From assembly GCA_016286385.1 (NCBI GenBank), contig JAEESO010000002.1:185346-249345 (forward strand): a stretch of DNA of 64,000 nucleotides. The letters are read 5' to 3'. The position numbers were made by a program, and so were the translations under genes. The notes under the pieces were generated by a model. The model saw only the letters and a program-made list of their open reading frames with translations, was not told where the DNA came from and made no database searches. Positions 26,861 to 30,909 of this stretch are shown here, one piece after another (position 1 is the first letter of the stretch; each line of letters begins with the position of its first letter). Source of the DNA: Bacteroidales bacterium (lineage in GTDB: Bacteria > Bacteroidota > Bacteroidia > Bacteroidales > UBA932).

Positions 26861-29098
26861 TTATATGCGGTTTTTGTAGTAATTCATAAGGCAGCCGTCG
26901 GCAAGGATTTCCCTTTCTTCGGGCGTGAGGTTCTCAAAGTGAAGGAGGATGGGGATGCATCGGCCATTCTTTGTAATGACGCGTGCTTCGGCCTGCTCTT
27001 CGCCTCCAAGGATGGCCTTGCGGATTCCGGGAACAAACACGTAATCCCCCGTCTCATATTCAAAGGGAGTGTCCTTGTCAATTGTGAAAGGAACGATTCC
27101 CCAGTTGATGCAGTTGGAGCGGTAACGCTTTGTGGCGTACTCGTAGCAGATGTTGGCGTCTCCGCCAAGGACCTTCTGGCAGGAAGCGGCCTGCTCACGG
27201 GCACTGCCGTCTCCGGGCTTGTTTGCAAATACGCAGGAACCAAGAGAGGTATTCTCGGCCGATGCTCCTGCTACCATGAGGGCCCTGCGGAGGTCTTCGC
27301 TCACAACGCCGGCGCGGCGGTTACGGTCATCGGCCTGGATGCGCTTGCTGATACCCACATATTCAGGGACGCGGCGGCTCAGGGCAAACTCGCTGAGCTT
27401 AAGAGGATTGGAGCGGTAACTTGAAGTTTCACCTGAAGGGATTAGCTCGTCCGTTGTGGTCACAGGATCGTGGATAACGGCGGCAAGTTCCAGCATCATG
27501 TTCTCCTGCATTGCGGGCATTGCGGGCCAGTCCTTGATATTGGGTCCGTAGCGGAGCTCGGTTTCCGGGAGAGCGTGGCCAAATCCGTTGTAGATGCGCT
27601 TCTCATAGATGCGGCCGTCGAAGCTGTAGGGCTTGTGGTCGTCATTATATTCAATATCCGTAGCAGCGGTGATTACTCCGCCGTTTGCTGCGGTTGCGGC
27701 AATGCTTCTGGCATCCATGAGCGCCACCATTGAAATCTGGCCCTGACCGGGTTTGGAGCCCTCTCTGTTGGGGAAATTGCGGGTGGTGTGACGGATGGAG
27801 AGACCGTTGTTTGAAGGGACGTCGCCGGCACCGAAGCAAGGACCGCAGAAGGCAGGCTTGATAACTACGCCGGCCTCAAGGAGTTCCTCTGCAATGTGGT
27901 TACGAGTGGTGGCAAGATACACGGGAGTGCTCTGGGGATAGGCGCTCATGGTGAAGTAATCATTGCCGATAGACTTACCGCGGAGGATAGTTGCAGCCTC
28001 ACTCAGGTTATCATAAGTGCCGCCGGAGCAGCCTGCAATGATGCCTTGATCGGCCCACACCTTACCGTCACGGATTTTACTCATAAGGTCAGGATGCACC
28101 TTGTCTCCAAAACGCTTTACGGTGTCTTCCTCGATGGCCTTCAGGACCTTCTCAGGGTTCTCCTGCAGCTCATGGATGGAAACGGCGTTGGAGGGATGAT
28201 AAGGAAGTGCAATCATGCTCTCCTGGGTGCTGAGGTCTATTGTTACCATGGAATCGTAGTATGCAACGGCGCCTGGTTTCAGTTCCTTGTAAGCCTCCGG
28301 ACGGCCGTGCATCTCAAAGTAATTCTTCACCTCATCGTCAGTGATCCAGATGGAGCTGAGGCAGGTGGTCTCGGTGGTCATCACATCAATTCCGTTACGG
28401 AAATCGATGGGCAGTTCATTCACGCCGGGGCCGGCAAATTCCAGCACCTTGTTCTTCACGAAACCGCTCTCAAACACGGCCTTAACAAGGGAGATTGCAA
28501 CATCGTGAGGGCCGATACCCCTTCTGGGCTTACCCTCCAGCCACACAAGGACAACCTCAGGGGCATTGATGTCCCAGGTGTTCTTAAGGAGCTGTTTCAC
28601 AAGCTCCCCGCCGCCTTCACCTACGCCCATATTGCCAAGGGAACCGTAGCGGGTGTGGGAGTCGGATCCAAGGATCATATTGCCGCAAGCCGTAAGGGCT
28701 TCACGTGCATACTGGTGGATAACCGCCTGGTTTGCAGGAACATAGATGCCACCATATTTCTTTGCGGCACTTAGGCCAAACACGTGGTCGTCCTCGTTGA
28801 TAGTTCCGCCCACTGCGCACAGGGAGTTGTGGCAGTTGGTCATTGCATACGGCAGGGGGAATTCCTTAAGGCCGCTTGCACGTGCAGTCTGGATAATGCC
28901 CACGTACGTGATGTCATGGGACACCATGGCGTCAAAGCGGATGTGCAGTTTGTCACCTTTGGATCCGTTCACGTCATGTGCACGGAGAATCTGATAAGCG
29001 ATAGTGTTCTCACGGGCCTCGTCTTTGCTTAAGGGCGCGGTCTCACTCAAAGTTTTTCCGTCAAGGAGATATACTCCGTTAGGGTTCAGTGTTATCAT
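26861..29098 (-). CDS. acn: Aconitate hydratase
   Basis: 745 residues, the length of the Bacteroidota aconitase class. Iron-sulfur ligand motifs are visible: DSHTRYGSLG, IAGCSGGTYDN, and KPAFCGPCFGAG (the CxxC pair). SSYRSNPLKLSEF may be part of the substrate pocket. It interconverts citrate and isocitrate between citrate lyase and Icd. The ATG overlaps the stop of the citC/G fusion (ATGA). Confidence 0.93.
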   Translation of the reverse strand: MITLNPNGVYLLDGKTLSETAPLSKDEARENTIAYQILRAHDVNGSKGDKLHIRFDAMVSHDITYVGIIQTARASGLKEFPLPYAMTNCHNSLCAVGGTINEDDHVFGLSAAKKYGGIYVPANQAVIHQYAREALTACGNMILGSDSHTRYGSLGNMGVGEGGGELVKQLLKNTWDINAPEVVLVWLEGKPRRGIGPHDVAISLVKAVFESGFVKNKVLEFAGPGVNELPIDFRNGIDVMTTETTCLSSIWITDDEVKNYFEMHGRPEAYKELKPGAVAYYDSMVTIDLSTQESMIALPYHPSNAVSIHELQENPEKVLKAIEEDTVKRFGDKVHPDLMSKIRDGKVWADQGIIAGCSGGTYDNLSEAATILRGKSIGNDYFTMSAYPQSTPVYLATTRNHIAEELLEAGVVIKPAFCGPCFGAGDVPSNNGLSIRHTTRNFPNREGSKPGQGQISMVALMDARSIAATAANGGVITAATDIEYNDDHKPYSFDGRIYEKRIYNGFGHALPETELRYGPNIKDWPAMPAMQENMMLELAAVIHDPVTTTDELIPSGETSSYRSNPLKLSEFALSRRVPEYVGISKRIQADDRNRRAGVVSEDLRRALMVAGASAENTSLGSCVFANKPGDGSAREQAASCQKVLGGDANICYEYATKRYRSNCINWGIVPFTIDKDTPFEYETGDYVFVPGIRKAILGGEEQAEARVITKNGRCIPILLHFENLTPEEREILADGCLMNYYKNRI

Positions 29099-30909
29099 AT
29101 AATAGAATCAAAAAATATTGTCAATGCAAGCATATCCGCCGCCCCACCCGGAGAAATCCCCTCCTGGGCATAGCGGATACACATATCTTTCAGGGCATCT
29201 GCGAGCGATGAGCTGGCGTTGGCCGGAGAAAATTGGTTTTTCGGGCACCGTCCCGAAAAATAATTTTCTTCGGCCGATGGCTGAGCAGATGCCAGAAGGG
29301 CTGCTGCTTCACGTTTCACATCTTGAGCCCGGTCATAGCCAACACGCTTAATGACGCAGGTGTCGTCCAGCGTGGACATAATCCGGAGCAGAGTCATCTG
29401 CAGGGCGTCCTGCTCCGCCTCTCTGTAAAACGGCAGCCAGTCCGTGAAAAGGTCACTGTAGCCGTCAAGCGCCATAGCACGGGCATCTTTGACACCTTTG
29501 CGCCGTGGAGCTATATTGTTGTTTATCAATTGATTATCAAAAATCGTCTGGGCTATTTCAGGCAGACGTTTTTGCATAAGCTCCTGAATATCAATCTGTT
29601 GCCTCCACGCCTCTGCAGCATTAAGAGCAATTCCAAGGCAGAAAATGGCCCCGCGGTGGGTGTTCACCCCGCACGTTGCAGAAAGCATAGCCTTCTCCGC
29701 CTCAATTCCAAGTTCTCGGAGTTCATCCGGGCCTGAAGCCATGGCCATCCTGGACCAGAACGGCCTCAGGGCCTTAATTCCCCTGAGCATAGTGTCATAG
29801 TCCATGTCCTTGTGCGCTCCGGGACCGTCCGGACCCACCAGGCCAGGCTTCATAGGAGTATTCAGTTCCAGAAGAAGAGCCCTTTCCGCCAACGCCGCCA
29901 GAAGATACGGATGCGTTGTGACCGGGCACAGTGCCGCGGCCGATGCATAGTCCCCCGCCTCGATTGCTGCCCGGACCCGTGAGGCCGATATGGCATTCAA
30001 TCGTGGAATGACCACAGCGTTATGCATGAGGGCATTGTACCGGGCTGTGAGAGGGTCCAGGGGTTCGGAACCCACAAAGCGCACGGTGGCACCAAGAGCC
30101 GGCATGATGTGCCTCTCAAAGAGGTCAATGTCCAGGGTCATCTGCGTCTCAGCTGCATCAGAGAGGTCCTTCAGGAAATACGTAGGGAACGTTGCTGCCG
30201 AAATACAATAGTCTGACCCCTCCAGCACCGTGATACGGGCATCTGCGTGCGCTCTTATCATTGCAAGGCGCTCTGAGTACGGGAAGGCGGAGGCGTCTTC
30301 CTTTACGGGGATCACGAAGAGGCGGTCTACCTGCTCCAGGGCCTTCTCAATGAGGTATTTGTGCCCCAGGGTAAAGGGATTGGCGTTCATTACAATGACG
30401 CCGCATTTGCGTGCGTCGGGCTTGCGTTGGCAGTGGAAAATTGGTTTTTCGGGCACCGTCCCGAAAAATAATTTTTCACTGCCGGAGGCATGGCAAATGC
30501 CGTAGAGGTACTCACAGTACTTCTCCAGGCCCCGGCCATTCTCCATGAGGATAGCCTTGGGTGCACTGGCCAGTACCTTGAACCCAATGCTTTCAAAAAT
30601 CTCCTGATTCTCAGGCTTAGTGAACACCTTGAGATTCAGGATGCCCTTAGCAGCTGCTTCGGAGACAATCCGGGACAGTAGAGGCAGCATAAAGCCTTCT
30701 GAACGGGCAGAAGGGGCCACGGCAACGCACTTTATGATATCGGCCTTGATCCCGGCGCCGGCAAGGATGGAGCCGTCCGGGGACGTGAAGGCATAATAAT
30801 GGTCCAGTTCTTCCATACGGAGGCCGCTTTCCCGGAGGAAAGTTTCCACCTGTTTACGGAAGAAAGGAACGCTTAGAGGCAGTTCCTGTATGAGACCATT
30901 TTCCTGCAT
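29095..30909 (-). CDS. citCG: Fused citrate lyase ligase (CitC) and triphosphoribosyl-dephospho-CoA synthase (CitG)
   Basis: 604 residues. The CitC half has an acetyltransferase-like N domain (1-140) and a nucleotidyltransferase domain starting VIVMNANPFTLGHKYLIE; it acetylates the lyase prosthetic group. The CitG half begins about residue 335, with the GLVGPDGPGAHKDMDYD loop and SPGGAADMLALTIF at the C terminus, and makes the prosthetic-group precursor. Three extra segments disturb linkers: residues about 142-161 and 545-564 are encoded by two copies of a 59-nt palindrome, and about 444-459 by a 46-nt palindrome. They leave the frame intact. It abuts DUF4954 and overlaps acn. Confidence 0.9.
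   Translation of the reverse strand: MQENGLIQELPLSVPFFRKQVETFLRESGLRMEELDHYYAFTSPDGSILAGAGIKADIIKCVAVAPSARSEGFMLPLLSRIVSEAAAKGILNLKVFTKPENQEIFESIGFKVLASAPKAILMENGRGLEKYCEYLYGICHASGSEKLFFGTVPEKPIFHCQRKPDARKCGVIVMNANPFTLGHKYLIEKALEQVDRLFVIPVKEDASAFPYSERLAMIRAHADARITVLEGSDYCISAATFPTYFLKDLSDAAETQMTLDIDLFERHIMPALGATVRFVGSEPLDPLTARYNALMHNAVVIPRLNAISASRVRAAIEAGDYASAAALCPVTTHPYLLAALAERALLLELNTPMKPGLVGPDGPGAHKDMDYDTMLRGIKALRPFWSRMAMASGPDELRELGIEAEKAMLSATCGVNTHRGAIFCLGIALNAAEAWRQQIDIQELMQKRLPEIAQTIFDNQLINNNIAPRRKGVKDARAMALDGYSDLFTDWLPFYREAEQDALQMTLLRIMSTLDDTCVIKRVGYDRAQDVKREAAALLASAQPSAEENYFSGRCPKNQFSPANASSSLADALKDMCIRYAQEGISPGGAADMLALTIFFDSII
29219..29277. repeat. Palindrome family A, copy 1, inside the citC/G gene
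   Basis: Left arm 29219-29245, loop CACCGT, right arm 29252-29277. The inner stem TTTTTCGGG/CCCGAAAAA and an adjacent AAAATT/AATTTT pair around a GG-versus-A bulge. Outer arm is TTGGCCGGAG here. It is read in the protein as NYFSGRCPKNQF, in a linker near the CitG C terminus. A 40-nt core is identical to copy 2. Confidence 0.9.
29534..29579. repeat. Palindrome family B, coding copy, inside the citC/G gene
   Basis: On the minus strand it begins TTATGCAAAAACGTCTGCCT and ends with a near-complementary arm, 46 nt in all, the same length as the intergenic copy at 25557. Sixteen bases (AGACGTTTTTGCATAA, plus strand) are identical in the two. In the protein it gives LMQKRLPEIAQTIFD within the CitG part. 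Confidence 0.75.
30427..30485. repeat. Palindrome family A, copy 2, inside the citC/G gene
   Basis: Left arm 30427-30453, loop CACCGT, right arm 30460-30485. The inner stem and bulge equal copy 1, but the outer arm reads TTGGCAGTGG and pairs with its own changed partner. It is read in another frame than copy 1, giving KLFFGTVPEKPIF, in the linker between the two CitC domains. Confidence 0.9.

Follow-up and report, generated by a model that had tools for sequence, protein, structure and literature searches.

A family of palindromic elements of about 100 nucleotides that probably invades genes in one genus of gut and rumen Bacteroidales

The fused citC-citG gene of a Bacteroidales bacterium, located in the window analyzed here (a stretch of 64,000 nucleotides), carries two copies of one palindrome within its coding sequence, raising the question of how the same hairpin came to be translated at two places in a single protein. 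The initial annotation had described two palindromes with an identical core of ~40 nt (AAAATTATTTTTCGGGACGGTGCCCGAAAAACCAATTTT in the coding orientation), a common loop and bulge, and outer arms that each pair with their own partner, all of which was verified. Its size of 59 nt was correct for the palindromes but not for the whole element: when the four copies that the searches located in the window's own genome (two in citCG, the others in a gene on contig C6 that encodes a HAD-domain fusion) were aligned, a 3' tail (CC..CRCAANGCCNACGC) proved to be conserved and an inverted repeat was found in the outermost position, giving an element of ~100 nt (Table 1). The usual form of this repeat is GGCATCTGC/GCAGATGCC, from which the GGCATTTGC/GCAAATGC arms of the CitC copy depart on both sides. 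When folded as single-stranded DNA, the window copies reached z-scores of -5.1 and -4.0, with none of the shuffles folding equally well, and a covariance model of the family matched the window at these two loci only (E ~1e-27). The asymmetric A/CC bulge and the unpaired 3' tail are conserved across the family. A covariance-model search of Rfam with the element returned no match up to E = 1. An intrinsic terminator was considered and rejected, as in both orientations the run of T lies ahead of the stem and the run of A behind it, the wrong order for that function.

Table 1. Positions of the host gene, the two elements and a decayed remnant in the window
Feature	Position	Strand	Details
Fused citC-citG gene	29095-30909	minus	604 codons / 604 aa; hosts both elements
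Copy 1, whole element, CitG part	29194-29293	minus	100 nt; outer arms GGCATCTGC / GCAGATGCC; insertion relative to homologues
Copy 1, imperfect hairpin	29221-29275	minus	Stem, A/CC bulge, 6-nt loop; folding and covariance model
Copy 1, conserved 3' tail	29203-29220	minus	AACGCCAGCTCATCGCTC
Copy 2, whole element, CitC linker	30403-30501	minus	99 nt; outer arms GGCATTTGC / GCAAATGC; insertion relative to homologues
Copy 2, imperfect hairpin	30429-30483	minus	Folding and covariance model
Copy 2, conserved 3' tail	30411-30428	minus	AACGCAAGCCCGACGCAC
Decayed remnant, third CitC copy	30236-30254	minus	GCACGCAGATGCC; peptide AHADA

Both segments were added to a protein that exists without them. The citC-citG product contains CitG and Citrate_ly_lig domains (Pfam), and homologues of it are present in 44 of the 151 genomes of the same genus; those without the segments align uninterruptedly across both sites and leave the clean gaps that the initial annotation had anticipated. 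An AlphaFold model of the window protein (22 sequences) had a mean pLDDT of 85, with values below 50 at the N terminus and at residues 144-161, 461-468, and 552-562. The stretches at 144-161 and 552-562 are the two inserts, which are thus predicted to form disordered loops. Both had been placed in linkers between domains, which proved right for the CitC insert but not for the CitG insert (encoding ASAQPSAEENYFSGRCPKNQFSPANASSSLADA), whose position is a helix-helix turn inside the CitG domain. Searching solved structures by sequence gave no match for the window protein, while a fold search returned mainly nucleotidyltransferase folds and one triphosphoribosyl-dephospho-CoA synthase.

Other repeats occur in the same gene. 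A second, shorter palindrome (AAAACGTCTG...CAGACGATTTT) lies within CitG at 29540-29573 on the minus strand (residues ~440-470); the arms of homologues differ at the same place yet still pair, and among the loci examined this type was seen in CitG genes only. Further dispersed repeats are translated in the CitCG linkers of L190/L125 (G165), L171, and L183 (GTCATTCTGAGCGAAGCGAAGAATC, read CHSERSEES, and GTCATGCCCGGC..GCCGGGCATC), and the CitCG gene has therefore collected several repeat families.

Comparison with other genomes, all of them metagenome assemblies, places the two copies in a larger family. When one genome per GTDB species was scanned for the exact pattern, 116 contig stretches matched, and the matches listed were all from uncultured Bacteroidales or Bacteroidia assemblies except for a 3.4-kb contig labeled Clostridia (L082). 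Given the Bacteroidales or Bacteroidia origin of the other listed matches, this label is probably a binning error. From related Bacteroidales assemblies 147 distinct copies were collected, 40 of which were used to build the covariance model. This model matched 28 of the 151 genomes of the window's genus, with up to 48 matches in one genome and on both strands, so that the core, as the search proposed in the initial annotation had been meant to establish, occurs in many places and genes and is not a local duplication. Among 393 genomes of the order screened with the model, the window's own genome alone gave a convincing match. Two weak matches from other genera of the order proved to be AT-rich hairpins that lacked the features of the family and were set aside, as was a weak match in the same genus that was likewise unlike the family. 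The range of the family is a single genus of Bacteroidales from gut and rumen, with no credible find elsewhere in the order; no other genus was found to carry the element, so the refuting case named in the initial annotation, the same peptide segments in other genera without the palindrome, did not arise. A phage origin was not supported, since the exact pattern was absent from 2.9 million viral contigs.

Beyond the hairpin, the copies differ most in their outer arms. Exact outer inverted repeats of at least 8 nt were found outside the hairpin in 42% of copies, compared to 4.3% for 5' and 3' parts taken from different copies. The copies include 47 different exact outer arms (at least 8 nt); the terminal inverted repeats are not constant, and the arms are often private to each copy. 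In the lineage of the window, the arm GGCATCTGC recurs in many genes and therefore travels with the element there. The element in this lineage (L052, L125, L058, L078, L142) is also often preceded by a REP-like hairpin, GTCATGCCCGGCCCCGACCGGGCATCT; the right half of this hairpin overlaps the outer arm of the element, which suggests composite units.

Such an architecture invites comparison with REP sequences, and the element could be of REP type, moved in trans by a RAYT (a Y1 HUH transposase) that would recognize the asymmetric hairpin as its single-strand substrate. Bulged, strand-asymmetric hairpins are what RAYT-type enzymes read. RAYT genes are present in 110 of the 151 genomes of the genus, several copies lie within ~250 bp of one, and a single RAYT (L099) has three copies around it. 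However, only 3 of 30 RAYT-centered loci from element-rich genomes contain a copy, and a classical REP-RAYT pair is therefore not supported here. The RAYTs that do adjoin copies belong to several subfamilies, the one on contig C6 has its own, different short repeats after it, and the alignment consensus has no conserved GTAG or CGTC tag such as this route would lead one to expect. We consider mobilization by RAYTs unlikely, although it is the strongest of the alternatives. No cognate transposase or parent insertion sequence was identified among the RAYT genes and element neighborhoods surveyed. On contig C6 (L001, positions 400-600), the repeats after the RAYT gene are short, arranged in tandem and contain GTGACGGAAAATGTCAC hairpins, and they lie immediately upstream of the HAD fusion gene with two elements; these are probably that RAYT's own REP family.

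The initial annotation had also claimed that paired changes preserve the stem, and this was borne out across the family. Standard pairs occupy 91.8% of pair cells in the family alignment, and two-sided changes affect 14 of the 23 pairs, amounting to 99 cells compared to 27 +/- 4 in column shuffles and 13-23 in controls with slid arms. The inner stem occurs as CGGG/CCCG, CGCAAG/CTTTGCG, TGGAAG/CTTTCCA, and other variants. Two-sided changes are also seen where copies occupy a fixed orthologous site (the CitG stem has two between the window and L090, the intergenic site of L083 and L085 has two, and the SpoU site four), and pairing has therefore been maintained after insertion. Some changes at fixed sites are one-sided and break pairs (e.g., in L058, or in L125 compared to L052). 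Two-sided changes may result from templated copying of one arm onto the other instead of selection on the hairpin. Strong predicted folding together with two-sided changes would also be expected of conserved RNA regulators or processing sites, such as an RNase III site or a determinant of mRNA stability, for which spread would be incidental. Yet the element is found in only 28 of the 151 genomes of the genus and at sites that differ between species, its hairpin is deleted in close relatives, Rfam holds no match, and copies occur in both orientations relative to genes. An RNA function as the reason for the family is thus improbable.

Invasion of coding genes by a dispersed palindrome, proposed in the initial annotation by analogy with Rickettsia palindromic elements (RPE), was found at many sites and in many unrelated genes. 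Hosts confirmed by Pfam are citrate lyase ligase/CitG, CitX, a MutY-like HhH-GPD/NUDIX protein, RnpA, UDP-glucose dehydrogenase, GDP-mannose dehydratase, RmlD, riboflavin kinase/FAD synthetase (RibF), ketoacyl synthase, a SpoU methyltransferase, an HI0933-like protein, and an NTP-transferase/HAD fusion; many more copies lie outside recognizable genes. In these genes the element breaks up protein similarity that is otherwise unbroken, yet leaves the ORF open; in-frame insertion lengthens essential and metabolic proteins without breaking them. Among the copies in Pfam-confirmed genes, 26 of 30 have the same orientation and frame, one of six readings (ENYFSGRCPKNQF), which encodes (E)NYFSGRxPKNQF or, in fuller form, ENYFSGRxPKNQFSSAxATPTHA. 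For the slightly more conservative count of 26 of 31, a binomial test against five equally used open frames gave p of about 4e-14, with the caveat that some copies are not independent of each other. A TAA stop normally interrupts one reverse frame, and the three gene copies read in this frame all have a TAT variant, present in 5 of the 147 copies overall, with pairing kept. Frames with a stop cannot be recognized as coding, so the frame bias is partly one of ascertainment, and the replacement by TAT is partly forced. In RUG478 (L052), the reading frames before and after the element at the second CitC insertion seem mismatched, which suggests a frameshifted gene or an assembly error.

The recurrence of the ENYFSGRCPKNQF peptide in unrelated proteins, with its bias in frame and orientation, might indicate selection on the peptide itself, as a functional linker module passed from protein to protein. 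This is very improbable, because the CitC copy of the window and others are read differently, many copies lie outside recognizable genes, close relatives lose the segment, and the segments are predicted to be disordered. The two window copies are indeed read in different frames, as first described, with that of the CitC copy being the exception in the family. Nevertheless, the accompanying claim that the hairpin and not the peptide is kept was too strong, given that copies in genes strongly favor a single hydrophilic frame and that the deletions seen among relatives preserve the frame.

Several sites preserve the element in successive states. At the site of copy 2 in CitC, 36 nt are missing from the hairpin tip in RUG722 (L120) and 57 nt are missing in G165 (L190, on the contig that also gave L125 of RUG11406), in both cases in frame; G165 also lacks 57 nt, again in frame, at the CitG site of copy 1. 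A third CitC site has the full element in L090 and L125, the tail alone in L120, and the remnant of Table 1 in the window, while a fourth is occupied in L052 and L125 and empty in the window. A local gene duplication or an assembly artifact could have been suspected, as both copies lie in a single gene and the genome is metagenome-assembled, with its contamination estimated at 5.6%, but this is refuted by independent assemblies from several studies that share orthologous occupied sites and show empty ones.

The inverted repeats can be compared with empty alleles at two well-resolved sites, one of which (SpoU) concerns another repeat family. Empty alleles of RmlD read ...LRLAAC... and have no inverted repeat, whereas in the occupied RmlD gene of L109 the LRLAAS codons (GGCTTGCTGC) still look native and their reverse complement, GCAGCAAGCC, lies at the insert's far end. 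In the SpoU gene of L284 (G165), which contains a different palindromic insert, the left arm GGCGGATGAGGG matches the empty allele of the window's own genome (L286), and the right arm CCCTCATCCGCC is an inverted copy of it. No direct target duplications were apparent in occupied/empty pairs, in which the insert boundaries have diverged. The SpoU/TrmH gene (L273-L302; e.g., L284, L286, L274-L279, L299, L301) is an insertion hotspot in the loop that joins its substrate-binding domain to its SpoU domain, where unrelated palindromic inserts are found in different species with the frame kept, several having private outer arms of ~20 nt.

Taken together, we propose that these sequences very probably constitute a new family of dispersed palindromes of ~100 nt, which are non-autonomous and invade genes. 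The term mobile rests on their distribution, since no movement was observed, no transposase is tied to the family, and no direct target duplications were seen. New copies would enter single-stranded DNA, most likely at replication forks. Spread by single-stranded template switching is a tentative suggestion whose chances we put slightly below even. Most insertions in genes would be purged, and survivors would be those that lie in flexible loops and are read in the single orientation and frame yielding a peptide that is hydrophilic and disordered; for the host enzyme they are probably close to neutral. The arms could be kept matched either by template switching between them or by selection, and template switching could also copy host flank into the opposite arm. 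We speculate, with more reserve than for template switching itself, that spread produces an inverted rather than a direct copy of host flank by fold-back or template switch, so that the outer arm of every copy is written from the host gene and the element becomes self-complementary with ends of its own, and that several unrelated repeat families in the genus do likewise. Slippage across the hairpin would then remove the element in frame and leave short scars. As a whole, the combination of a family, gene invasion, tolerance, arm copying, and decay is likely to be the best explanation of the data.

The open-access library searched contained no report of such elements in Bacteroidales, and papers outside it could exist. 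The closest known systems are the RPE and the Wolbachia palindromic elements, which are ~100-150 bp long and occur between and inside genes, in frame in unrelated conserved proteins (PMC10969869, PMC3767692, PMC2229807). Like RPE, the element is a palindrome of ~100 nt forming an imperfect hairpin, inserted in frame in unrelated genes and encoding a recurrent peptide (one reading in 26 of 30), but its host belongs to the Bacteroidales (Bacteroidota) and not the Rickettsiales. The asymmetric A/CC bulge, the unpaired 3' tail, the copy-private outer arms, and a visible series of in-frame decay are further features set against RPE. The family works like RPE and yet is separate, a distinction drawn from taxon and described features. 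REP sequences are defined as palindromes of 20-40 bp with a GTAG/CGTC tag that bracket a RAYT gene (PMC3733652). The element resembles them as a short, imperfect, dispersed palindrome in a genus with RAYTs; in contrast, it is ~100 nt long, tagless, and frequent in coding genes, and the RAYTs are generally unbracketed (one is bracketed). Bacterial MITEs (Correia/NEMIS, ERIC, RUP), some of which carry ORFs that fuse in frame (PMC2229807), are likewise small non-autonomous palindromes with terminal inverted repeats, but the terminal repeats of the element vary between copies, direct target duplication was unseen, and a parent insertion sequence was not found. With archaeal palindromic repeats (a 2005 study, as cited in PMC2229807), the element shares coding potential outside the Rickettsiales, as far as that citation describes them, although their host is archaeal. 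Palindromes that invade proteins are known mainly from Rickettsia and Wolbachia, which are obligately intracellular and have shrinking genomes; an abundant family in gut Bacteroidales means that neither an intracellular lifestyle nor that clade is required. Occupied, deleted, scarred, and empty alleles in sister species allow insertion, tolerance, and decay to be ordered and tested, and the private outer arms provide a handle on how such elements move.
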